From positions 1-64,000 of the forward strand of contig JAIBBN010000005.1 of assembly GCA_019694655.1 (NCBI GenBank): 64,000 nucleotides of DNA. The letters run 5' to 3'. Every line of letters starts with the position of its first letter. Position 1 is the first letter of the stretch. The notes beneath the pieces were generated by a model. The model ran no database searches and was not told the DNA's origin. It saw only the letters and a list, made by a program, of their open reading frames with translations. The position numbers and the translations under genes were made by a program. This document shows positions 6,738 to 48,777 of the stretch, piece by piece. Source of the stretch: Leptospirales bacterium. Lineage in GTDB: Bacteria; Spirochaetota; Leptospiria; Leptospirales; Leptonemataceae.

Positions 6738-7281
6738 GGCCGTCCTGGTGACCGAAGCGCAACTCGCAGAAATCATCCACGAAACCAGAGCAACGGTTTT
6801 CCAGTCGATCCGCCGGCATTTGCCGGCGGATCTTGGACATGCGGTGGAGGACGTTGTGCAAGAAACCTACCTTCGATTTTACCTCCACTTCCAGCATCGC
6901 AGTCTGCCGGAGGGCGACGGCAGGCAACGCTGGCTCTACGTCGCGGCGCGCAATGAAAGTCGCAAAGCGGCGCGCAGCGCCAGGCGTCGCACGCGGCTGA
7001 TTCTTGCAGCAGCTCAAACGGCGCAGTCAGAGCTATCTTCGGAATTGGAGAGGCGCGATGACCCGCTGGACGGGAATGCCGAGAATTTGCGCAGCAGACT
7101 GGAGGTGCAGACCGCCGTTTTGCCGCCACATTTTCGCCAGCCTATGCAGCTGCGACTTCAGGGTCTCAGTCTGAAGGACATTGCCCGACGGCTGTCCCTG
7201 GCGGCAGGAACGGTAAAGTCCAGATTGGCCCGCGGACGAGAGCTTCTGGCGCGCGAGCAGGCCAACACCGGGAGGAAATGA
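6721..7281 (+). CDS. ECF RNA polymerase sigma factor
   Basis: 186-residue sigma-70 family protein with only regions 2 and 4. Region 2 is seen around HAVEDVVQETYLRFYLHF with the DNA-melting part RQRWLYVAARNESRKAARSA; region 4 is the helix-turn-helix LSLKDIARRLSLAAGTVKSRLARGRELL. ATG 6721 overlaps the end of the Spy-like gene by 17 bases; an upstream GTG-type start at 6697 would lengthen the overlap. The anti-sigma-like gene follows with an ATGA overlap. The three genes form one operon, likely self-activated from the promoter proposed at 6174-6201. Confidence 0.88.
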   Translation: MKIQCEAVLVTEAQLAEIIHETRATVFQSIRRHLPADLGHAVEDVVQETYLRFYLHFQHRSLPEGDGRQRWLYVAARNESRKAARSARRRTRLILAAAQTAQSELSSELERRDDPLDGNAENLRSRLEVQTAVLPPHFRQPMQLRLQGLSLKDIARRLSLAAGTVKSRLARGRELLAREQANTGRK

Positions 7282-7628
7282 ATATGTCCGCAAACCATCA
7301 GAATTCGGTAGAAGAGGCGCTGGCCCGGCTGGAGAGCGATACACAGTTTCCCCGGGCGATGGCGCGGCGTGTAGCTGTAGCCGCAGCGCGCCGTCGGCAA
7401 ACTCGCGTTCCAGCCTGGATGCTATCAGCGGCCGCAGCAATCGTCGCATTGCTGCTGGGTTTTGTCGTGACGCGCTGGATCCAGAATGCCTCTGGCGAAA
7501 TGGCGCTCAGCGACGCCGAGATTGTGCGCTATGAAAGCGAGCTGCTTGAGGCGCGCAGCGTGCCGGACCACAATGAAATGTGGAGCGAAACAGACCAGAT
7601 CATCGATGGCGCTCTGGCCGCGCGTTGA
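7278..7628 (+). CDS. Short single-pass membrane protein, putative anti-sigma factor
   Basis: 116 residues: a 46-residue cytoplasmic N-terminus rich in Arg and Ala, one membrane helix (about 47-66, AWMLSAAAAIVALLLGFVV) and a 45-residue periplasmic tail. Position and topology fit a minimal anti-sigma factor that tethers the ECF sigma factor encoded directly upstream; CnrY-like anti-sigmas are similarly short. There is no zinc-binding (ZAS) HxxxCxxC motif, so the assignment depends on context. Its ATG overlaps the sigma stop as ATGA, which indicates translational coupling. Confidence 0.65.
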   Translation: MNMSANHQNSVEEALARLESDTQFPRAMARRVAVAAARRRQTRVPAWMLSAAAAIVALLLGFVVTRWIQNASGEMALSDAEIVRYESELLEARSVPDHNEMWSETDQIIDGALAAR

Positions 7629-7664: not shown

Positions 7665-7997
7665 TTAGAGACCGAAGAGCTTCTCCAGGCCGGGAATGCC
7701 TGCGCCGCCAGCCACGTGGCGCAGCTCGTTGCTCAGGGTTTCCCGGGCGCGCGCTGCAGCATCATTGATGGCGGAGACAATCAATTCTTCCAGCATTGGC
7801 TTTTCAGAAGCGGAAAGCAGTACAGGGTCGATCTCGATCTTCAAGGCCTTGCCCTCGCCGTTGACTGTGACGCGCACCATGCCGGCGCCAGCCTCGCCCA
7901 CAATCTGCATGCGATCGACACGGGCCTTGATCTGTTCCACCTGCGAGCGCATCTGACCCATGCTCTCCCAGATCTTCGTAAAATCCATCTGACTCAT
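7665..7997 (-). CDS. ybaB: YbaB/EbfC nucleoid-associated protein
   Basis: 110-residue DNA-binding protein of the YbaB/EbfC family, which forms dimers and coats the nucleoid. The family pattern is clear: an N-terminal helix (IWESMGQMRSQVEQIKARVDRMQIVGEAGAG), a central strand region (VRVTVNGEGKALKIEIDP) and a second long helix (LEELIVSAINDAAARARETLSNEL). It follows dnaX with a 4-base ATGA overlap, the widely conserved dnaX-ybaB arrangement. It converges on the anti-sigma-like gene with 36 bases between them. Confidence 0.93.
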   Translation of the reverse strand: MSQMDFTKIWESMGQMRSQVEQIKARVDRMQIVGEAGAGMVRVTVNGEGKALKIEIDPVLLSASEKPMLEELIVSAINDAAARARETLSNELRHVAGGAGIPGLEKLFGL

Positions 7998-9358
7998 GGA
8001 TCGCTCTCCAGTCGCGGCGCCTCCGCCGGATCCACTACCACGCCGCGGAACTGCTGCATCAATGCATACTCTGCCGAGTATTGCGCGGAGTCCTCTGTCT
8101 GCGTCGCGGCGGCTATTGGCGCGGCAGCGGCGGGCGTCTCGCTCGACCGCGGCGCCGTTGCTTTGCCACTGACTTCCTGCTGGATGGCGGCGCTCATCTG
8201 GTTGAGCTTCTGAATCACCCCGCTGATGCTTGGCCGCAGCAGTAGTTCTCGAATTTCCAGCAGCTCCATTTCAATCAACACTCGCGTTTCGTAGGAGTTG
8301 CGCAGACGCAGGGCAAAGCTGCGCGTCAAAAGACCATAGATGCGGTCAAATACGCGCGCCAGTTGCTGCGGATCGACGCCGTCGAGGCCCTCCTGGATGC
8401 GCTTGAGCTCGCTTTGCGGCGCGCCCAGGAATTCGGCGTCATCCACTCCGCGTCGCAAGTACAGAGCAACGCGCAGAAAATCAAGGTACTCCCATATGAA
8501 GCGACTGAGATCGCCGCCGGCGGAGAACACCTCGTGCACCGGCCGTACGACCTGGTCGGCCGCGGCCGAAGGATCCAGCAGGCTGGAAGTCAGCGCAACA
8601 AATAGCTCATTGGGCGTGTGACCGATCAGCGTCTTGACCTTTTCGGCGCTGATCTCTGCGCCACAGTAGACCATGGCCTGCTCAAGAAAGGACAGACTGT
8701 CGCGAAAGGAACCGTCGCCGCGTCGAGCAATCCAGAACAGCGCTTCATCCTCCGCCTGAATTTTTTCGCGCGCGCAGAGCTGCCGCAGGTGCTCCTGGAT
8801 GACGCGCAAGGGCGCTTTGCGGAAATTGAATACCTGGCAGCGCGAGAGGATCGTCTCCGGAATCTTGTTCAGTTCAGTTGTCGCCAGAATAAACAGGGCA
8901 TGCGCCGGCGGCTCTTCCAGCGTCTTCAACAGGGCATTGAAAGACTCCGTGGTGAGCATGTGTACTTCGTCGATGATGTAGACTTTCTTTTTGGCGGCCA
9001 TTGGCTGAAAGCGTACATTCTCGCGCAGCTCGCGTATGTTGTGAATGCCGCGATTGGAAGCGGCGTCGATTTCGATGACGTCCAGCGCCGAGCCGTTCAA
9101 AATTGACAGGCAAGATTCGCAGCGGTCGCAGGGTTCGCCGTCCTGAACATTGCTGCAATTGACGCGCTTGGCCAGAATGCGCGCAATAGTGGTCTTGCCG
9201 ACGCCGCGCGCGCCAAAAAACAAATAGGCCGATCCCAGTCGCCCGTGCGCCAGAGCGTTTTGCAAAGCGCGCACCGTCGTCTCCTGCTCGACCACTTCGC
9301 CGAACTTCTGCGGGCGATACTTGCGGGCCAGGACCCGATGCTCGGCTGCACTCTCCAC
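7994..9358 (-). CDS. dnaX: DNA polymerase III subunit gamma/tau
   Basis: Clamp-loader ATPase of the replisome, about 454 residues. It shows the AAA+ Walker A GARGVGKTT, a zinc-binding Cys cluster (CSNVQDGEPCDRCESC), Walker B IIDEVHML, sensor 1 ATTELNKIPETILSRC and the oligomerisation domain, followed by an Ala/Pro-rich low-complexity linker and short tail. The tail is much shorter than E. coli tau. I chose GTG 9358 because the family begins at 'VLARKYRPQ'; the open frame up to 9526 carries no family sequence and would overlap the divergent gene. It is in an operon with ybaB. Confidence 0.93.
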   Translation of the reverse strand: MESAAEHRVLARKYRPQKFGEVVEQETTVRALQNALAHGRLGSAYLFFGARGVGKTTIARILAKRVNCSNVQDGEPCDRCESCLSILNGSALDVIEIDAASNRGIHNIRELRENVRFQPMAAKKKVYIIDEVHMLTTESFNALLKTLEEPPAHALFILATTELNKIPETILSRCQVFNFRKAPLRVIQEHLRQLCAREKIQAEDEALFWIARRGDGSFRDSLSFLEQAMVYCGAEISAEKVKTLIGHTPNELFVALTSSLLDPSAAADQVVRPVHEVFSAGGDLSRFIWEYLDFLRVALYLRRGVDDAEFLGAPQSELKRIQEGLDGVDPQQLARVFDRIYGLLTRSFALRLRNSYETRVLIEMELLEIRELLLRPSISGVIQKLNQMSAAIQQEVSGKATAPRSSETPAAAAPIAAATQTEDSAQYSAEYALMQQFRGVVVDPAEAPRLESDP

Positions 9359-9473
9359 AGCGTCAGCACAACCTGGCGTGAGAGCGCGGTCAACGGTTTT
9401 GAACGCTGCAGCGAGCGCCGCAGGCTTTGCCAAATTCGATTGCCTGCAGGATCGCCCCGGGCTCGCTGTCCCG

Positions 9474-10391
9474 ATGCACAGTCGCCAGGCGCTCCTTGCA
9501 ATCATCTTCGCTGTCATCGCCTGCAAAGCAGAAAGCGCGCCGCGCGAGCTGGAAGTGACTGCACAGTCCGGACTGCGCCTGCGAGCTCAGCCTTCGCTCA
9601 GCGCGCCGGCGGTCGCTCTGGCGCCGTCCGGTTCGCACTTGCAATGGCTGGAAGACGGGTCGGAGCGCGTTGTGATTGATGGCATCGACGGTCGCTGGCA
9701 AAAGGTGCGCTGGCAGAATGGTCCGCGTCTGATTGACGGCTGGGCCTTTTCCGGCTATCTGAAAGCGATCGATGGATTAACTGCCAGCAGCAGGCAGCCT
9801 TCCTCCAGCAACGACCGAGTGATTGCGCCGGGCGGAGACTTTTATTACATTCTCTCGCGCTCGTCTGCACAGCCTGTTAGCGGCGAGGCCTGCGCCGAGG
9901 GCTACAGTGGCGGGGATTGTGTGCTTCAGGTATATCGAAAAAATGGCAGCCTTGCGGCAAAGGTTGAGGCCGTGGGCCCTTTTGGCTGGTTCGATCGTCG
10001 CCGGATCTGGATTCACAGCTACATCGGCGACTGTGGCGGCGGCTCGATCGGCTGGGAGCTGCTGGATGCTGCAAGCGGCAGCCGAGAGCGCGTATACTCC
10101 CACAGCAATACCGAGCCCTGCGGCGATGATGAATTGACCGGCGAAGAACACCGCGTCTGTCTGCGCGATGCCTGTCTGGACATTTCGGTCAGTCAGAAAC
10201 CGGTGCAAACTGAAATCAAAATCCAGGGGACGCCTGTCGTGCGAGATGCGGGCGAGGGGCGTCTGGAAATCCAGGCGCCGCTTGATGCTGCACACCTGCC
10301 TGCGCGCCTTCCGGATCGTCTGCTGATTGTATTGAACGGACGAAGCCACAGCTTTGTCTACGAAAATGGCTCGTTGCGAGCAGTGCCGTGA
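9474..10391 (+). CDS. Exported SH3-like domain lipoprotein
   Basis: 305 residues starting with a short signal sequence ending in FAVIAC, a possible lipobox with Cys15. Residues 22-85 (LRLRAQPSLSAPAV ... RWQKVRWQNG ... GWAFSGYL) match bacterial SH3-like domains, which often bind peptidoglycan or metal. The second part is unrecognised but has several Cys (GEACAEGYSGGDCV, GDCGGGS, CGDDE, CLRDACLD) suggestive of disulfides in an exported protein. ATG 9474 is favoured over upstream starts that lie within the dnaX 5' region. Its stop overlaps the pth start (GTGA), so it heads the pth operon. Confidence 0.7.
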   Translation: MHSRQALLAIIFAVIACKAESAPRELEVTAQSGLRLRAQPSLSAPAVALAPSGSHLQWLEDGSERVVIDGIDGRWQKVRWQNGPRLIDGWAFSGYLKAIDGLTASSRQPSSSNDRVIAPGGDFYYILSRSSAQPVSGEACAEGYSGGDCVLQVYRKNGSLAAKVEAVGPFGWFDRRRIWIHSYIGDCGGGSIGWELLDAASGSRERVYSHSNTEPCGDDELTGEEHRVCLRDACLDISVSQKPVQTEIKIQGTPVVRDAGEGRLEIQAPLDAAHLPARLPDRLLIVLNGRSHSFVYENGSLRAVP

Positions 10392-37427: not shown

Positions 37428-40400
37428 TCATTCGTCCGTTAGGTCAATGACAATGGCTGTAAAGTCGTCCTCCATGGAGTCCTGGCGACGAAACTGCAAG
37501 ATTTCGCCGTGCAAACGATCCAGGAATTCGGACGGAGCAAGTTCTGTCGACGCGGCCAGCAAGCGTTGCAGACGCTCCTCGCCAAATAGCTGACCATCTG
37601 GATTTCTCGCTTCGTAGAGCGCGTCGGTATAGAGGAACAGGCGATCGCCCGGCGTCAGCGCAACCTGCAAATTTTGGTACCGCAGATCAGGGGTTAGCGC
37701 CAGCGCCCGGCCTGACGCCTGCAGCAGCTGTACGGCGCCGCGGCGCAGCAGCATACTGGGCGGATGCCCGGCGGAGGCAATGGCGGCGCTGCGCCGATCG
37801 GAGCTGATACGCACGAAACAGCAGGTCAGAAAATTGCCGGCAGTGCGATCATTGAGATAGGCGTTGGCCCGACTGAGCGCTTGCGCCGGGTCGGCTGCGG
37901 CGTCGGCGGCCGAGCCAAGAGTGATCTGTCCCATGGTGGCGACCAGCGCCGCGGAAACGCCGTGTCCGGCGACGTCGGCCACGTAGGCGCTCAGTGATCC
38001 ATCGCGATGCAGCGTGACATCGTAGAAGTCGCCGCCAATTTCCTGCAGCGGCTCGTAGCGTGCAGCCAGGGTAAGACCGGGGACTTCTGGCAGAAACGCA
38101 GGGAGGATACTCTGCTGGATGCGCCGGGCATGTTCGGTTTCGCTCAAGTAGGCGCGCTCCGCCGATTTCAGCGAGAGCAGATTGCGCAGGATTGATTGAA
38201 GTTCGCCGTCATGGAAGGGTTTGGCCAGGAATGCATCCACGCCAGCCGCAGCGGCTTCCTGGCGGGTTCCTTCTTCGCTCCAGGCGGTCAACATCAGGAT
38301 CGGCGCGCTGCGCGTGCGATCCTGTCGACGCACTTCGCGCACCAGGTCCAGGCCGCTCTGATCGCCCATCATGTAATCGGTGATGAGAAGATCAGGACTT
38401 TCGCGCCGCAGCAGCAATAGCGCCTCCTGTACGCCGCTGGCGGTTAGCGTGCGGTATCCCTCTCGATGTAAAAGGTGAATCAGATAATTGCGCAGATCGG
38501 GATGATCTTCTACGATCAAGATTGTGGCGTTGCGCGCCAGATTGATAACGGTTTCTTGATTGCGAAATTCGGCGGGCGCCGCTGCGACCGAGGCTTCGGC
38601 GCCGCTGGCCACATCGCTCAATTCTACCAGCGCCCGCAAGCGGCCTTCATGAAAATGGCGACGCAGCGGCGTCGTATTGGGCGGAGCGGCCGGCAGCCAG
38701 AACCAGAATTCGCTGCCGGCGCCGCGCGTGCTGCGCAAACCAACTTCGCCGTTGTGCATCTCGATCAGCTCTTTGACCATTGCCAGACCAAGGCCGGAGC
38801 CTTCCTGTCCCAGCAGGCCGATTTCGCTGTGGCTGAAACGACGAAAGAGCTCGGCCTGGCGATCTTCGCTCACGCCAATCCCGGTGTCGCTAACGGCAAC
38901 GAGTACGCCGCCGCGTTCAGCGCTGGCCCGCACCACAACGCGTCCGCCTGCGGGCGTGAATTTCAGCGCATTGGAGAGGTAGTTGTAAACGCATTTGTCA
39001 AGTTTGTCGGGGTCGGCCAGAACTACGGGCAAATCTTCGCCCAGCTCGCGGTCCAGATTGATGCCACGCGACTGGGCGTAGGGCGAAAAAGCCGAGAGAC
39101 TGGCCTCCAGAAAAGCGCTGATTGGCAGCGGTTGCGGATCAAGCTGCATCTGCCCGGCGGCAATTTTCTGCATGTCCATCAAACGATTAACCAGACGTAA
39201 CAGCCGGCGAGAGTTGGCCAGCACCATGCCGGCAATGTCCGGCGGCAGCGCCTCGTTGCGCTTGTGCGCGGACTCCAGAGGACCGTGGATCAAGGTCAGG
39301 GGCGTTCGCAGCTCATGGGAGACGCTCTGAAAGAATGCGGTTCGACGAAGATCCAGCTCTTCCAGCTGACGATTTGCATCGCGCAGCATCTGCGTCTGCG
39401 CTTCCACTTCCTTTTCAAGGTGATGGCCCAGGTGCTCGCTGCGCTCCAGGCTGCGCGCAAAGCGTCCGGCCTGGATTGCCGATTGTAGTGAAAGAAAAAT
39501 GAAGAACGCGGCGTGGGCCAGTCGCGGACCGTTGTAAACCAATTGCTGCACCAGTATGTCGTTGATGCCGGCCAGGCAGAGCAGCAGGATCCCCGCTGAC
39601 ATCAAGCGGGCGCCGCGCCGGCGCCGCCAGACAGCGACAAAAATGGCCAGCGCGCAGTAGGCCAGCAGCGCAGCCATGGGAAAGAGGAAGAAGGCCAGCG
39701 CTTTGCTGGCGCTCAACAACGAGGCAAACAATGCGTGCAGGCTGAAGCCGCCAGCCAGCAAGGCGACGCCAATGCTTACGCGCCGCTGGAATTCGCGCGG
39801 AAAGAGTCGACGCAAAAACTCCACAAATGCGAATGTAAGAATATATATACCAATGTAGGTGGCGCGCGCATGGATTGGAAAGATGGCCTCGCCGGGAAAA
39901 AGCGTCGGTAGAAGCGCCGCGTTGTCATTGACGCGCGTCAAGAAGGCCAGGCAAAGCAGCGCAAAGTACAGACTGCCGACATCGCGGCGGCGAAAGATCC
40001 AGAGCATCAAATGATAGATGCCCAGACCAAGTGCGAGGCCGAGCACGCTGATGTCCTGCACCAGCTGTTCGGCGCGCAATTGCCACAATTGCTCCGCCGA
40101 TCCGGTCAACAGGGGATGCGTTGGACCGCCATAGACAGAGTGAAAGTTGCTGATTTGCAGCACAATTTCGCGTCGATGGCGACATTCCTCGGTAATCGGC
40201 AACAGCAGCGGACGGTAGCCTGGACGCTCCGAAGCGGCGGAGCTGCCCGGCGCGCCGGAAGATTCATCGATCGAGGCGCCGCACATCAGGCGCACTGCGT
40301 TGCTGGCCCAGCGCAGACTCAACAATGCCTCGCGGTCGAAATCGCCCTGCCAGCGCAGTCGCAGCGTCGCGAAACGTTGCTGCGCCTGGCCAGGCAGGTC

Positions 40401-40670
40401 CCAGCGCGCCGGAACATGAAAGTACGCGCGTTCGCGCTGCAGCTGGTCCTGCAAGGCAGGCCGGTCGAAGTCCGCCGGCGTATAGAGTCGATCCCAGTAG
40501 ATTTCCCACTGGCCGCCAATGCTCCGCGGTCCGGAATGGGAGGCAGCGTCCTGCAGATTGACCAGACCGCGCTGCGCCTGAAAGGGCGTCGCAGGCTGGC
40601 AGAAACTCAGCAAAAACAGCAGCGGACTCGCCAGCAGAATCAGCGTGATTCTGCGGACGAGTCTGGCCAT
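37428..40670 (-). CDS. 7TMR-DISM hybrid histidine kinase with receiver and SpoIIE phosphatase
   Basis: 1080 residues. A leader ending LLFLLSFC is followed by a periplasmic 7TMR-DISM sensory domain (about 25-210; 'GQWEIYWDRLYTPADF'), seven membrane helices (about 220-410), a dimerisation domain with phospho-His in FFQSVSHELRTPLTLIHG, a HATPase domain (DNYLSNALKFTP-like N-box, DTGIGVSED, GSGLGLAMVKELIEMH), a receiver domain with Asp in LLITDYMMGDQSG, and a C-terminal PP2C/SpoIIE domain with GGDFYDV, YVADVAGHGVSAALV and EDDFTAIVI. Signal flow could run from a periplasmic ligand through phosphotransfer to serine dephosphorylation of a partner. No cognate response regulator or anti-sigma antagonist is adjacent. 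ATG 40670 starts at the membrane leader. Confidence 0.9.
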   Translation of the reverse strand: MARLVRRITLILLASPLLFLLSFCQPATPFQAQRGLVNLQDAASHSGPRSIGGQWEIYWDRLYTPADFDRPALQDQLQRERAYFHVPARWDLPGQAQQRFATLRLRWQGDFDREALLSLRWASNAVRLMCGASIDESSGAPGSSAASERPGYRPLLLPITEECRHRREIVLQISNFHSVYGGPTHPLLTGSAEQLWQLRAEQLVQDISVLGLALGLGIYHLMLWIFRRRDVGSLYFALLCLAFLTRVNDNAALLPTLFPGEAIFPIHARATYIGIYILTFAFVEFLRRLFPREFQRRVSIGVALLAGGFSLHALFASLLSASKALAFFLFPMAALLAYCALAIFVAVWRRRRGARLMSAGILLLCLAGINDILVQQLVYNGPRLAHAAFFIFLSLQSAIQAGRFARSLERSEHLGHHLEKEVEAQTQMLRDANRQLEELDLRRTAFFQSVSHELRTPLTLIHGPLESAHKRNEALPPDIAGMVLANSRRLLRLVNRLMDMQKIAAGQMQLDPQPLPISAFLEASLSAFSPYAQSRGINLDRELGEDLPVVLADPDKLDKCVYNYLSNALKFTPAGGRVVVRASAERGGVLVAVSDTGIGVSEDRQAELFRRFSHSEIGLLGQEGSGLGLAMVKELIEMHNGEVGLRSTRGAGSEFWFWLPAAPPNTTPLRRHFHEGRLRALVELSDVASGAEASVAAAPAEFRNQETVINLARNATILIVEDHPDLRNYLIHLLHREGYRTLTASGVQEALLLLRRESPDLLITDYMMGDQSGLDLVREVRRQDRTRSAPILMLTAWSEEGTRQEAAAAGVDAFLAKPFHDGELQSILRNLLSLKSAERAYLSETEHARRIQQSILPAFLPEVPGLTLAARYEPLQEIGGDFYDVTLHRDGSLSAYVADVAGHGVSAALVATMGQITLGSAADAAADPAQALSRANAYLNDRTAGNFLTCCFVRISSDRRSAAIASAGHPPSMLLRRGAVQLLQASGRALALTPDLRYQNLQVALTPGDRLFLYTDALYEARNPDGQLFGEERLQRLLAASTELAPSEFLDRLHGEILQFRRQDSMEDDFTAIVIDLTDE

Positions 40671-40689: not shown

Positions 40690-41532
40690 TCAAATGCCGC
40701 GAGCGCTGCGCATGGCGCAGGCTTCGGCGACCAGGCGCGCTCCAAGGAATTCATAGACTGGAAGCACATCCAGTCCCGTTGCGGCGACGCCTGTTGCCGA
40801 GTCGGCGACGTTCATCATGGTTGCTCCGCTGGGCAGTACGGATTGCACCTTCTGCAGCAACGGCTGCACATGTCCTTTGGCGACCACTGCATACTGTTCC
40901 AGCTGCTCGCTCAGCTGACCGAAGACGCTGGTCGCCTGTCCGAGTGCATCGCCGCCGGCAAAGGCCGAAAATTTGGAAGCGATGCTGGCATTCTGTGAAT
41001 TCATCAGCTTCTTAAACAATCCGGCGCCGGCCTCCGCCAGGTTGTCGGCAAAGGGAAGAGCCACATCCGCAGCCACATAGTAGGTGGCGATTTCCACGCC
41101 TGCCGGAAGCTCTTTGAATAGACTCAGCTTCTGTGCTACGTCGCCGGGGAAAAGACGGTAGATCATATAAGCCAGCCCTACGCCTTTTAAAGCGGCATCC
41201 GCAGCCTGGGTGTCATCCGCTTCAAAAGTCCGCTTGCGCGGCGCGCTGCCAAACAGCGAGAGCAGATTCTTTACGCCGGTCAGTCCAGCAATCAGCTTGT
41301 CGCTGGTATCCAGGGCTTCGGCCACCCACAAGGCCTTGCTGCCATCGTCGGCGGCGGCCAGGGCTCGTGTTTTTTCCAGATCGCCGCCGACGCGTTGCAC
41401 AGCGCCATCCAGCGTATTGTAGAACTGATAGGGGGGGCCTCCTGGCAGAGTATTGAAAATCGTTCCGCAGATCTTAACTGTAAGATCGTCCTGGTTGAAT
41501 TTTCCAAGGGATTGTTCCAGGTTTGCCGCCAT
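40690..41532 (-). CDS. Conserved protein of unrecognised family, paralogue A
   Basis: 280 residues, mostly helical, no signal peptide. Residues 101-168 (TFEADDTQAADAALKG...YMIYRLFPG...ELPAG...ADVALPFADNL) match residues 233-300 of the protein encoded divergently at 41732-42958, and similarity extends over nearly the whole length. It opens with FNQDDLTVKICGTIFNTLPGGPPYQFYN, equivalent to FNDNDVTVRLLRTLFGVLPFAPDFRTYFN in the partner. The C-terminal part has VLPSGATMMNVADSATGVAATGLDVLPVYEFLGARLVAEA. No catalytic motif is evident. GAGGAG lies upstream of ATG 41532. Confidence 0.75.
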   Translation of the reverse strand: MAANLEQSLGKFNQDDLTVKICGTIFNTLPGGPPYQFYNTLDGAVQRVGGDLEKTRALAAADDGSKALWVAEALDTSDKLIAGLTGVKNLLSLFGSAPRKRTFEADDTQAADAALKGVGLAYMIYRLFPGDVAQKLSLFKELPAGVEIATYYVAADVALPFADNLAEAGAGLFKKLMNSQNASIASKFSAFAGGDALGQATSVFGQLSEQLEQYAVVAKGHVQPLLQKVQSVLPSGATMMNVADSATGVAATGLDVLPVYEFLGARLVAEACAMRSARGI

Positions 41533-41731
41533 TTTCAGTAGTACTCCTCAGGTAGGTTGCGCCGGGGGCGCGGGTCACAAAGCTTTGCCAGGCATCGCAA
41601 AATCGGAAGCGATTTTTTTCAATTTTGCTGCAATCCATCGCCGCTCGACCGGCGTGCAAAAGGAGTTGCGGTCCTTACATAGCGAAGATGCTTTCCCCGC
41701 AGACGCCGGCATTCTGGCGCAGGGAGCAGGC

Positions 41732-42958
41732 ATGAGCACGACTCGCAAAGGCAGCGGCTGGGAACTCTTGCAATCATGGTGGATCTTGCTGACGCTGGTT
41801 CCGACGCTGAATGGCCCGGCTTTCCTGATTGCCGGCCTGCTGGTGCGACGGGCGAAGCTCCTGATTGCCGGCGCGCTCTACCTCGGGCTGACGGTCGCCT
41901 TTGTTGCATACCTTCCAGGCACGGAAGAGGGCGCGGCCCCGGCGGCGCCCTGGGTCGACTATCTGATCGGCGCGTGGTTTCTCGCCTGGCCAGTCTCCTT
42001 CATACATGCCTTACTTTCGCGCAAAGAATACCTGATACTGGCGGAAGCGCGCAGCGAAGCGTCCAGTCGTGAAACCGATCGCTTGCGCACGCGCGTGACC
42101 GCCTCCGCCGGGCTCTCGGCCAATCGCATCGACGAGCAGTTGGTTGATTTCAACGATAACGATGTTACCGTGCGCTTGCTGCGCACGCTCTTTGGCGTAC
42201 TGCCCTTTGCGCCCGATTTTCGCACTTACTTCAATGTCGAAGGCGCTGTACGCCGGCTCAATCCGGCGGCGGACGCCAGCGTCGTCCAGCGCGCTACAGT
42301 CATCGCCGCCGAAGAGCCCTACGCGCAGGTGGTCAAGACCGGGCGCGCTCTCGATGCCATTGATAGCGGTCTGGGCGTCTTCACCGGCATCAAGAACGTC
42401 TATGATCGAATCAAAGAGAAAAATCAGCGCACCTTCGAGGCGGATCCGCAGCAAGCGGCCGATGCCGCCATCAAGGCGCTATCAATTGGCTATATGATTA
42501 CTCGGCTCTTTCCGGGCGGGCCCGTGGATAAGGTTAAGGCCTTCCTAGATCTTCCAGCCGGCCAGGAGCTTGCGCTGTACTTTGCCAGCGTGGAGCTGGC
42601 GCTGCCCTTTACTGATAACCTCATGGAGGAGGGCGCTCAGTTGATCGGACGCATCATCGAACAGCATCGTCCGGCCATGGAGCAACGCTTCTCATCCTTT
42701 ACCAACGCCAGCGCAGCGCAGGAAGCGCAAAGCGTGTTGGGCGAGCTGACGGCGCGCGTCGGTCAGGCTCTGTCTCAGGTGAAGCTCTACGTTGATCCCC
42801 TGGCTCAGAAGCTGCAAGCATACATGCCTTCGATCATGAACGCAGCGGACTCGGTGAGCGGCGGGATTGCCACGGCGGTCGATCTGCTTCCGGCCTACCG
42901 TTTGCTGTGCGCTCGCCTGGCGGCGGAAGCGGCGGCCAGGAAAGCGCTCCAGGCCTGA
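41732..42958 (+). CDS. Membrane-anchored protein of unrecognised family, paralogue B
   Basis: 408 residues. Residues 1-100 contain about three hydrophobic segments (WWILLTLVPTLNGPAFLIAGLLV, LLIAGALYLGLTVAFVAYL, YLIGAWFLAWPVSFIHALL), then a soluble part homologous to paralogue A from about residue 135 to the end. Thus the two share a domain of some 260 residues, with a membrane anchor only in B. Shared landmarks: FNxxDxTV, TFEAD, QAADAA, YMIxRLFPG, LPAG, LPFxDNL. Start ATG 41732 with GGGAG upstream. The two genes are divergent with 199 bases between them and could be controlled together. Function unknown. Confidence 0.75.
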   Translation: MSTTRKGSGWELLQSWWILLTLVPTLNGPAFLIAGLLVRRAKLLIAGALYLGLTVAFVAYLPGTEEGAAPAAPWVDYLIGAWFLAWPVSFIHALLSRKEYLILAEARSEASSRETDRLRTRVTASAGLSANRIDEQLVDFNDNDVTVRLLRTLFGVLPFAPDFRTYFNVEGAVRRLNPAADASVVQRATVIAAEEPYAQVVKTGRALDAIDSGLGVFTGIKNVYDRIKEKNQRTFEADPQQAADAAIKALSIGYMITRLFPGGPVDKVKAFLDLPAGQELALYFASVELALPFTDNLMEEGAQLIGRIIEQHRPAMEQRFSSFTNASAAQEAQSVLGELTARVGQALSQVKLYVDPLAQKLQAYMPSIMNAADSVSGGIATAVDLLPAYRLLCARLAAEAAARKALQA

Positions 42959-42992: not shown

Positions 42993-43718
42993 TCAGCGCC
43001 GTGCGCCAGCGTTGTCTTCTGCTTCCTGTTCCAGCGAATCGTCGTCGCTATCCAGGTCATCGAAGTACTGATCGAGCGGGTCTGATGCATCGAACCCTTG
43101 CTCTGCGTCCGCTGTTTCGTCAGCTTCGTTTCCTGGATCATCAGCCGGAGGACTGAGCAGTCTCTGCATTGCGGCTACGATTGCGCCCAGGCTGGCGCCG
43201 GCCAGATGCGACTCCCAGGAAATGCCATCATTGCGCGGAAAGATTCCCCAGAGCATTCCTCCATAAAAAATTCCCAGCAGAAGCCCAATGGCAAGCGCCG
43301 CCCGATCGCGGTAGAGCAAGCCGGCCACACAGAGTTGTGCGGCAAGGCCATAGACAAGGCCGCTTGCGCCCAGGTGGATCTCCGGTCGCGCCAGGCCCCA
43401 GACCAGCAGTCCGCCAGCGAACCAAAATGTTGTAAGACCGAGCAGCGCGAGACGACCAAAGAGGTAGATCGTCGCCGCGAACAGAAAAAAAAGCGGAACG
43501 AGATTGGAGATCAGATGGAGCGTGGAGGCGTGCACGAGCGGAGCTGTAATCAATCCCGGCCAGGGCGGCCAACGCCCGGCCTGAATTCCAAACTCTTGCG
43601 CTTGCCGGCCCGAAAGCGCCAGCAACGCCTGCGCCGCAGCCAGCAACAGAACAAGCAGGCTCGCTGCGCCAAGGGCACCCCGGCCGCTACATCTTGGTCT
43701 GGCTTCGCGCAATCGCAC
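42993..43718 (-). CDS. Rhomboid family intramembrane serine protease
   Basis: 241 residues with about six membrane helices. The catalytic Ser119 lies in LGASGLVYG (GxSG), the catalytic His171 in WESHLAGASLG, and HASTLHLISNLVPLFF holds the conserved His/Asn (H68, N72) that shape the oxyanion hole. Active-site residues are complete, so it should cleave membrane helices. A C-terminal tail of about 50 residues is strongly acidic (Asp/Glu), which is unusual and may be cytoplasmic or periplasmic. Start is GTG 43718. It converges on paralogue B with 34 bases between them. Confidence 0.85.
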   Translation of the reverse strand: MRLREARPRCSGRGALGAASLLVLLLAAAQALLALSGRQAQEFGIQAGRWPPWPGLITAPLVHASTLHLISNLVPLFFLFAATIYLFGRLALLGLTTFWFAGGLLVWGLARPEIHLGASGLVYGLAAQLCVAGLLYRDRAALAIGLLLGIFYGGMLWGIFPRNDGISWESHLAGASLGAIVAAMQRLLSPPADDPGNEADETADAEQGFDASDPLDQYFDDLDSDDDSLEQEAEDNAGARR

Positions 43719-46494: not shown

Positions 46495-47184
46495 ATGCAA
46501 CGATGGATGCGCCTTAGCAATATATTTCTGCTCACGACGCTTTTGGCCGCGGGAATCTCCTGCGCCAGCGCCGGGGGCGTCGCTTCCGGCGTCTCGGGCC
46601 AGGTGCGGCTGCTGACTGTAACCAATCAAACTGGCGGTACGCTCAAACTGCTCTTTATTTCGCCTTCGGACAGCCAGTACTGGGGTCCCGATGTACTGGG
46701 CGCTACACGGACCCTGGCCCAGGGCGCCAGCGCCGGTTTCTATCTGCACTACGCTGCAGCCTGCGGACGCTTTGATATTATGGGCGTGCACACCGATAAC
46801 AGCACCTTCCGTATTCAGGGCTTTGAAGTCTGTGATGACCGTCAGAACCAATCCGTCGCCCTGCAGAGCTCCCATTCGGCGGACCCCCTGGGCGGCATGC
46901 GCCTGGCCAAGTTGCGTTTTCGCAATATTGCCAGTCAGACAATGCGACTTGTTTTCGTCTCGCCGCATGATTCGCGTTCGTGGGGCGTCGACTTTCTGGG
47001 ACAGACAACCACCCTGGCCCGCGGCCAGACTCTGGAACTTGTTATCCCTACCTCCCAGGAGGCTGTTCGCTACAATGTGATGGCAGCCGGCGAAGACGAT
47101 CGTCAGTACACCTTCAATATTGATATTGATCGGAGCAGCGAGACATTCACTTTTCCGATCGAGGATTCCGATTTGCGCCAGTAG
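46495..47184 (+). CDS. Exported lipoprotein with two internal repeats
   Basis: 229 residues. The leader ends in LLAAGISCASAGG, a possible lipobox. The mature protein contains two related units of about 95 residues: LTVTNQTGGTLKLLFISPSDSQYWGPDVLG with TLAQGASA, and LRFRNIASQTMRLVFVSPHDSRSWGVDFLG with TLARGQTL. Each ends with a strand (IMGVHTDNSTFRI, VMAAGEDDRQYTFNI). The repeat is beta-sandwich-like. The GAGAGGAGGA binding site before ATG 46495 is strong, suggesting high expression. Its last 38 bases overlap the convergent vsr gene. No family recognised. Confidence 0.7.
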   Translation: MQRWMRLSNIFLLTTLLAAGISCASAGGVASGVSGQVRLLTVTNQTGGTLKLLFISPSDSQYWGPDVLGATRTLAQGASAGFYLHYAAACGRFDIMGVHTDNSTFRIQGFEVCDDRQNQSVALQSSHSADPLGGMRLAKLRFRNIASQTMRLVFVSPHDSRSWGVDFLGQTTTLARGQTLELVIPTSQEAVRYNVMAAGEDDRQYTFNIDIDRSSETFTFPIEDSDLRQ

Positions 47185-47602
47185 GCGCTGCACAGCGTCG
47201 CAAAATCGATTGCAGTCGACGCTGCAGGGAGGGGACGTCGCGCGTCTGGCATTCCCAGATGACCGCCGTCCTCCAGCCAAGCCGATTCAACTGCCGTCGT
47301 CGGCTGCGGTCGCGACGCAGGTTGCCGTCCAGTTTGCGATCCCAGTAGCTGCGATTGCTGGTCGGCCGGCGGGCGTGCTTGCAACCGTCATGGCCGTGCC
47401 AGAAGCAGCCGTGCACAAAGATCGCCAGTCGTCTTCTGCGCAGCACCAGATCGGGAATTCCCGGCAATTGGGCGTCGTGCTGTGCAAAGCGATGGCCCAT
47501 CTGGTGCAAAGCGGCGACGACGCGACGTTCCGGCGCCGTATCTCTGGATGCAACGCTGCGCATCACTGCGCTACGTTGTAGTTTGTCAAAGACATCGCTC
47601 AT
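47147..47602 (-). CDS. vsr: Very short patch repair endonuclease Vsr
   Basis: 151 residues. Nicks DNA next to T:G mismatches that arise by deamination of 5-methylcytosine. Active-site D51 lies in PGIPDLVL and H71 in FVHGCFWHGHDGC; with C66 and C74 this is the Vsr metal- and zinc-binding region, and positions agree with E. coli Vsr numbering. The N-terminus MRSVASRDTAPERRV is standard. It overlaps the preceding methyltransferase by four bases, so it probably repairs the mismatches created by that enzyme. Its end overlaps a convergent lipoprotein gene. Confidence 0.95.
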   Translation of the reverse strand: MSDVFDKLQRSAVMRSVASRDTAPERRVVAALHQMGHRFAQHDAQLPGIPDLVLRRRRLAIFVHGCFWHGHDGCKHARRPTSNRSYWDRKLDGNLRRDRSRRRQLNRLGWRTAVIWECQTRDVPSLQRRLQSILRRCAAPTGANRNPRSEK

Positions 47603-48777
47603 GGCGCGACGGCAGGGCGCGGCCGCAGGCGTTTGCAGAGTGGCGTGAGCAAGTGCTGATCGAGAAAGGCGGCGGCCGGCACGGCGAGGCCATCGCCCGT
47701 AAGGCGGTAGGCCTCGTTGGCCCGCTGCGGAAGGATGTAAGTGTCAGGCAGGCCCATCAAACGCGCAGTTTCTCGCGGCGTGAAGAGCCTGCTGCGCGGA
47801 CGTCCTTTGTGGTATTGCAGCAGGATCTGACGCGACGATCCGCCCGCCGGAGTGCGCAGACAGCCGGCCATACCGTCAAAACGACATTCGGCGCGCACCA
47901 CCGACCGCCCGTCTTTGTCTCGCCGCGTGCGACGAAAGAGCGCGCCGCAGAAGTCGCCTGCCTTGCGCGCCTGCTCCAGCCGGGCGCGCTGTGTGGCGCT
48001 CATCTGGGAAAGCAAATGCGCGGTGCTGGCCGCTGAATCCCACTCGACGTCTTGCTCGTCCAGAATTGCCTCGAGCTGCGGTCTGCCTGCGGTCGGCTCA
48101 GGCAAATGGAATGGAATCCAGCGCTCCTGCAAATGCGGCGTTAGACGCTGCCGCAGCCTTTGCAAGGCCGGCGCATCCCACCGAACTTTTTCGGCCTCTC
48201 GGCCATTCCCTTCTGCAAGCAGGGCGGCGCGCTCAATGCGCTGCGCATCCACGCCGAGTACGATCAATCGAGGCCGCGATTGCGGCAGAAAGTGGGCCGC
48301 ATCCAGAGCAAGGGCGCCAATCCAGTAGTCCTCGGCAGCCAGCAGGTCCAGCAATGCCAGCAGATCAGCGCCTTCGCGCCGGCTGGCCAGACCGATAACA
48401 TTTTCAATTGCAATCAATCCTGGGGCGCGCTGTCCGCGACGCAATTCCTTGATCAGACGCCAGAAGTGAAAAAACACGCCGCTGCGTTCGCCGGCCAGGC
48501 CGCGACCGCGTCCGGCCAGCGAAAGATCCTGACAGGGGAAGCTGCTCCAGGCCAGCTCAACATCGTGCGGCAGTTGCTCCAGGCGAAGGGAGGCGACGTC
48601 GCCCTCAATCAGCCTGTGCCGGGGAAAATTTGCGCGATAGCTCTGTGACTTGGAAGCCGAAATTTCATTGGCCAGCAGCACCTGCCAGTTGCGTTGCAGC
48701 GCGCAAGCCGCCATGCCGCCGCCGGCAAAAAACTCCAGCATGCCTCTGCGCCCCGCCATGGCGAGGACAGCGCGCAT
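47599..48777 (-). CDS. DNA (cytosine-5) methyltransferase paired with Vsr
   Basis: 392 residues. Motif I MLEFFAGGGMAACAL, motif IV SSFPCQDLSLAG with the catalytic Cys, motif VI IAIENVIGL, motif VIII QSRPRLIVLG, motif IX RLFTPRETARLMGLPDTYILP and motif X RLTGDGLAVPAAAF. The target-recognition region differs greatly from the Dcm-type enzyme at 4274, so the target is different and cannot be predicted. No restriction gene is adjacent; the operon is methyltransferase then vsr. It may start at 48777, 48759 or 48741; motif I begins by 48741. Confidence 0.9.
   Translation of the reverse strand: MRAVLAMAGRRGMLEFFAGGGMAACALQRNWQVLLANEISASKSQSYRANFPRHRLIEGDVASLRLEQLPHDVELAWSSFPCQDLSLAGRGRGLAGERSGVFFHFWRLIKELRRGQRAPGLIAIENVIGLASRREGADLLALLDLLAAEDYWIGALALDAAHFLPQSRPRLIVLGVDAQRIERAALLAEGNGREAEKVRWDAPALQRLRQRLTPHLQERWIPFHLPEPTAGRPQLEAILDEQDVEWDSAASTAHLLSQMSATQRARLEQARKAGDFCGALFRRTRRDKDGRSVVRAECRFDGMAGCLRTPAGGSSRQILLQYHKGRPRSRLFTPRETARLMGLPDTYILPQRANEAYRLTGDGLAVPAAAFLDQHLLTPLCKRLRPRPAVAP

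Follow-up and report, generated by a model that had tools for sequence, protein, structure and literature searches.

The pairing of a soluble protein with a membrane-anchored paralogue is a familiar arrangement, and lineage-restricted protein families of unknown function are common. The described proteins with which the present pair can be compared resemble it in limited respects. Microbial rhodopsins and other helical bundles share with the model of the soluble paralogue, S, an arrangement of up-and-down helices (Z 5.3, 132 residues, rmsd 4.1), but this Z score lies at the level reached by unrelated helical proteins, Foldseek reached no better than E 0.19, at TM values under 0.3, and S differs from them in being soluble. 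TM2 domain proteins (PF05154) are similar to the membrane-anchored paralogue, M, in having short N-terminal membrane helices, yet with E values up to 1 allowed, none of 14 M proteins matched this family, whereas a TM2 gene that neighbours M scored E 6e-30.

In this study, we explored the S and M genes of a Leptospirales bacterium within a window of 64,000 nucleotides, meaning the whole stretch of DNA that was analysed. Both had originally been assigned to an unrecognised protein family, and this assignment held, since sequence profile searches against Pfam, NCBIfam, PHROGs, PADLOC and the PDB gave no significant match. With Pfam-A and NCBIfam nothing came near the curated cut-offs for S or M, the best Pfam match of the window proteins (E 0.065) being far below the Pfam cut-off, and no Pfam family was detected in the 31 aligned homologues scanned. 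No profile of PHROGs or PADLOC-DB matched at E 0.1 or better, while the best match among PDB sequences in a profile search was a syntaxin helix at E 0.37. At the level of structure, Foldseek returned no match at E 0.001 for the S and M models against the PDB, or for the S model against viral models, and the best VIA-align Z scores of 5.3 (S) and 5.9 (M) are of a size common for unrelated helical proteins. Literature searches returned nothing of relevance. We additionally considered and rejected a phage, plasmid or defence origin, as PHROGs, PADLOC-DB and collections of phage, plasmid and viral contigs were all without match.

The S and M genes and their shared domain

Both genes were found where they had been predicted (Table 1). 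The open reading frame list places the start of M at a TTG at 41453, which we regard as an artefact; because 13 orthologues begin at the position of the ATG at 41732, M is read from there. When the whole genome was searched with S, the M copy was recovered (E 3.4e-57, spanning residues 4-276 of S and about 132-405 of M), but no third copy of the domain.

Table 1. Positions of S, M and neighbouring features within the window.
Feature	Position	Strand	Description
S	40690-41532	minus	soluble paralogue, all-alpha domain of an undescribed family; ATG start, 280 aa
M	41732-42958	plus	membrane-anchored paralogue; ATG 41732, 408 aa
M anchor	41732..42121	plus	about 130 residues, three hydrophobic helices and a long helix leading into the domain
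M copy of shared domain	42125..42955	plus	40% identical to S
S/M spacer	41533..41731	no strand	199 bp between divergent start codons
Hybrid sensor kinase gene	37428-40670	minus	7TMR-DISM, HisKA, HATPase, receiver and SpoIIE phosphatase; adjoins S
Rhomboid intramembrane protease gene	42993-43718	minus	converges on the 3' end of M
Two side-by-side open reading frames	47147-48777	minus	resemble, by eye, Vsr mismatch endonuclease and DNA cytosine methyltransferase

A domain shared by both proteins had been predicted and is indeed present in each, although its length of about 275 residues is somewhat above the roughly 260 first claimed. The landmark motifs that had been picked out, among them TFEAD, QAADAA and LPFxDN, were borne out, and several of them fall among the 33 positions that are invariant in both the S and the M copies in our alignment of 31 homologous domains. 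The S and M families match each other at E 2.8e-95 in a profile-profile comparison, and their common signature, consisting of a TFExD..Q..DA..K core, an LPFxDN motif and a C-terminal N..DS..G..A...D..P motif, is invariant in 31/31 domains. Ten of the invariant residues are acidic (D75, D78, E104, D106, D112, E147, D163, D244, D255 and E270), while the alignment holds no invariant His or Cys. At a threshold of 80% in each group, only three paralogue-specific positions separate S from M, namely S 81, 82 and 85, which adjoin the invariant D75, D78 and N89. Since only these positions consistently part the two paralogues, any shift in role that followed the duplication may be located at them.

The three-helix membrane anchor ascribed to M was recovered by hydropathy, with hydrophobic segments at about residues 18-40, 43-62 and 78-96, and no transmembrane segment was detected in S by the same approach. 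AlphaFold models, built from alignments of the window sequences and fetched sequences, show S as entirely helical (pLDDT 85.1, pTM 0.86) and M as helical, with the same domain following the membrane helices (pLDDT 86.5, pTM 0.72) and residues 73-126 forming the long connecting helix. In the M loops, basic residues lie between segments 1 and 2 and after segment 3, and the loop between segments 2 and 3 is acidic. A positive-inside reading of these loops suggests that the M domain faces the cytoplasm, and under the same reading the first hydrophobic segment could possibly be a re-entrant or interfacial helix. When the anchor was searched alone, it was found once in each of the 15 genomes that carry both paralogues, fused to the S/M domain only, and no convincing instance on any other protein was recovered.

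The two genes had been described as sharing a control region of 199 bases. The gap does measure 199 bp, but of the 15 paired genomes just four, each from a different genus, have S and M side by side: divergent in G000, the window genome, and in G011 (202 bp), and in tandem, M before S, in G008 and G012. The remaining 11 genomes have the genes unlinked, as in G005, where 131 kb separate them on a single contig, and co-transcription of S and M is therefore not needed. The two divergent spacers align poorly and share no convincing conserved element, and no sigma-70-type match was found inside the spacer of the window. Given the rarity of adjacency and the lack of convincing conservation between the divergent spacers, a shared control region does not characterise the family. 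In the window genome, an in-frame ATG of the kinase gene lies at 40670, 19 bp past the stop codon of S, and given this short gap the two may share a transcript there; the kinase beside S is not conserved in relatives.

Function could not be read from the neighbours, an approach which we rejected, since the surroundings are ordinary housekeeping genes, vary by genus and include no gene common to all genera. By eye they comprise citrate synthase, a GalE-like epimerase, a HAD phosphatase, MutS/GyrB and enoyl-CoA hydratase, and Pfam adds an inositol monophosphatase. In four genomes (loci L042 at 7006-7413 and 8642-9475, L048, L050 and L052), M is flanked by a TM2-domain gene immediately before it and an inositol monophosphatase-family gene immediately after it, an order confirmed by Pfam in L042 and assigned by sequence clustering in the other three. 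In genus g4 (L036 at 7997-9525, L038 and, likely, L040), M is followed within a few bases by a gene for a MbnB/TglH/ChrH RiPP-modifying enzyme and a DUF2063 gene, both confirmed by Pfam in L036. The arrangement resembles a metal-RiPP operon, but one that lacks an obvious precursor.

Distribution and duplication history

We surveyed 22 genomes of the GTDB family to which the window belongs and 393 genomes sampled from the phylum. A scan of genome contigs with the S sequence alone gave no match, and homologues were then found by a profile scan. Both paralogues are present in 15/22 family genomes, counting as present the M gene of G012, which is split over two contig ends. G019 carries S and a fragment at a contig edge, the incomplete G021 carries S alone, and five genomes carry neither gene (G004, G007, G009, G010 and G017). 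Restricting the survey to the 16 family genomes that are at least 87% complete, 14 contain one copy each of S and M, two (G010 and G017) contain neither and none contains a single paralogue, so that the pair predicted at the outset is kept or lost together. For this 14/0/0/2 distribution a Fisher test calculated by hand gives p = 1/120, with phylogeny ignored and for a small, phylogenetically dependent sample. G017 belongs to genus g3, and as its three siblings in that genus carry both S and M, its state is read as a joint loss, all of these genomes being drafts.

Elsewhere among the 393 phylum genomes, only G147, from another family, has a homologue, a single soluble copy. Outside the spirochaetes, single S-type copies occur in four Acidobacteriota genomes, namely three Acidobacteria/Vicinamibacteria bins and G504. 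The soluble form can therefore work without M in these four genomes and in the one spirochaete. Named records with the family are uncultured bins labelled as Leptospiraceae, Leptospirales or Spirochaet, unlabelled bins and acidobacterial bins. In G504 (L120, 4806-8210), the S-type gene follows a gene for a 453-aa membrane protein, for which no Pfam match was found, and a CsgG/FlgO-like gene; the three genes probably form one operon.

In the protein tree, all M sequences form one clade with support of 100/100, while S and the single copies from outside the family make up the other side. All M are thus separated from all S by a single duplication. The branching within S largely parallels that within M, with G000 and G011 together and genera g4, g2 and g3 recovered in both. 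Such groupings are as expected if one duplication preceded the radiation of the family and was followed by vertical inheritance. The outside single copies sit on long branches of uncertain placement, and in an rpoB tree the genomes without the pair are scattered, at weak support, over several positions within the family or next to it. Among close relatives, both paralogues are under strong purifying selection (dN/dS about 0.01-0.15, dS near saturation), and S and M are therefore real genes and not chance open reading frames.

A distant acidobacterial branch

A weak match in one acidobacterial genome (E 2.4e-7) opened a distant branch of the family, comprising proteins of about 295 residues from five acidobacterial genomes (L112, L124, L125, L126 and L164). 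As a profile, this branch matches the S/M family over its full length (probability 96.9%, E 1.7e-10, 20% identity). It resembles the S/M family in length, in the same TV...P start and in a DxxQAxDxxLK-like core, and the stretch with D106, Q109, D112 and K116 is conserved in it as well. It differs from them in being soluble only, in its sequence identity of about 20% and in adjoining a lipoprotein gene. In 5/5 genomes this short, conserved gene comes immediately before the one for the distant S-like protein, and its product gave no Pfam match above cut-off. The lipoprotein gene and the distant S-like gene constitute a second undescribed conserved gene pair. In spirochaete genomes no convincing lipoprotein homologue was found, the search returning one weak partial match at E 0.025.

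Readings of the pair and comparison with known systems

We propose, as the most likely reading, that S docks on the homologous domain of M. S and M are the products of one ancient gene duplication in a Leptospira-related spirochaete family. According to this model, the anchor of M would tether one copy of the all-alpha domain to the inner membrane on its cytoplasmic side, and S would be the free cytoplasmic subunit that joins it in a membrane-attached assembly. Co-inheritance, the shared absence of both genes and the matching trees, along with the occasional adjacency and the shared invariant core, are the grounds for this reading, with the contact between S and M in particular deduced from co-inheritance, and we favour it tentatively, at rather less than an even chance. 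Against it stand the unlinked genes of 11 genomes and the single S-type homologues outside the family, and co-inheritance is also expected for mere housekeeping genes of the lineage. The main rival is that S and M are subfunctionalised duplicates, two independent copies of one activity that is carried out in the cytoplasm by S and at the membrane by M, without mutual binding. In favour of such duplicates are the 33 residues that S and M hold invariant in common, the mere three neighbouring positions by which they can be told apart, the mostly unlinked genes and the S-only homologues elsewhere; however, the absence of either paralogue alone from near-complete family genomes, the joint loss in G017 and the adjacency of the genes in four genera sit less well with independence, and we consider this alternative possible but somewhat unlikely.

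The invariant residues admit a further reading, in which the ten conserved acidic residues would form a polar or metal-binding pocket of an enzyme or small-ligand binder, with M placing the domain at a membrane substrate. So many invariant acidic residues within a helical domain of 280 residues, and the persistence of the D106 to K116 stretch in the distant branch, agree with a pocket. Yet there is no match to an enzyme family or fold and no invariant His or Cys, the DDxxD motif is not conserved and the invariant polar residues may merely be buried packing contacts, which leaves an enzyme or binder quite unlikely. A titration or regulatory pair, the other role besides a two-component complex that the original prediction had put forward, would have M sequester S at the membrane, or the reverse, and release it on a signal. 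It draws on the soluble and anchored anatomy of the paralogues and on the hybrid kinase/receiver/SpoIIE gene that immediately follows S in the window, but neither this neighbour nor the divergent spacer is conserved and S is without a recognisable DNA-binding or catalytic domain, so that we regard it as improbable. Finally, the distant acidobacterial branch, homologous to S/M by profile, has its gene next to a lipoprotein gene in all five genomes, so that proteins of this family may act in assembling the envelope or in the traffic of lipoproteins; M would then take the place of the lipoprotein as partner at the membrane. With the homology being remote and the spirochaete genomes showing no convincing homologue of the lipoprotein, this is the least probable of the readings weighed here.

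Taking the docking of S on M together with the distant branch, the wider picture would be that of a new all-alpha fold and family, which pre-dates the split between Acidobacteriota and the spirochaete family or has spread between them, is held at the inner membrane as a cytoplasmic assembly by a dedicated anchored paralogue in the latter and has a lipoprotein-partnered cousin in the former. As a whole, we consider this picture rather unlikely.

Compared with further all-alpha systems, class I terpene synthase-like enzymes are set apart by their conserved DDxxD motif, which is not conserved in the S/M alignments, and among the fold matches they come no better than E 0.26, with TM under 0.2. Alpha-helical pore-forming proteins of the ClyA/Ahl type gave weak fold matches only, and S is, by hydropathy, without the hydrophobic hairpin with which these insert into membranes. 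Set beside these known systems, S and M add a well-bounded protein family for which neither sequence nor solved folds revealed a named relative, and an obligate-looking pair of soluble and anchored paralogues that is kept across one uncultured Leptospira-related family. Since partner, anchor and invariant core are already defined, pairs of this kind are good targets for structure determination.
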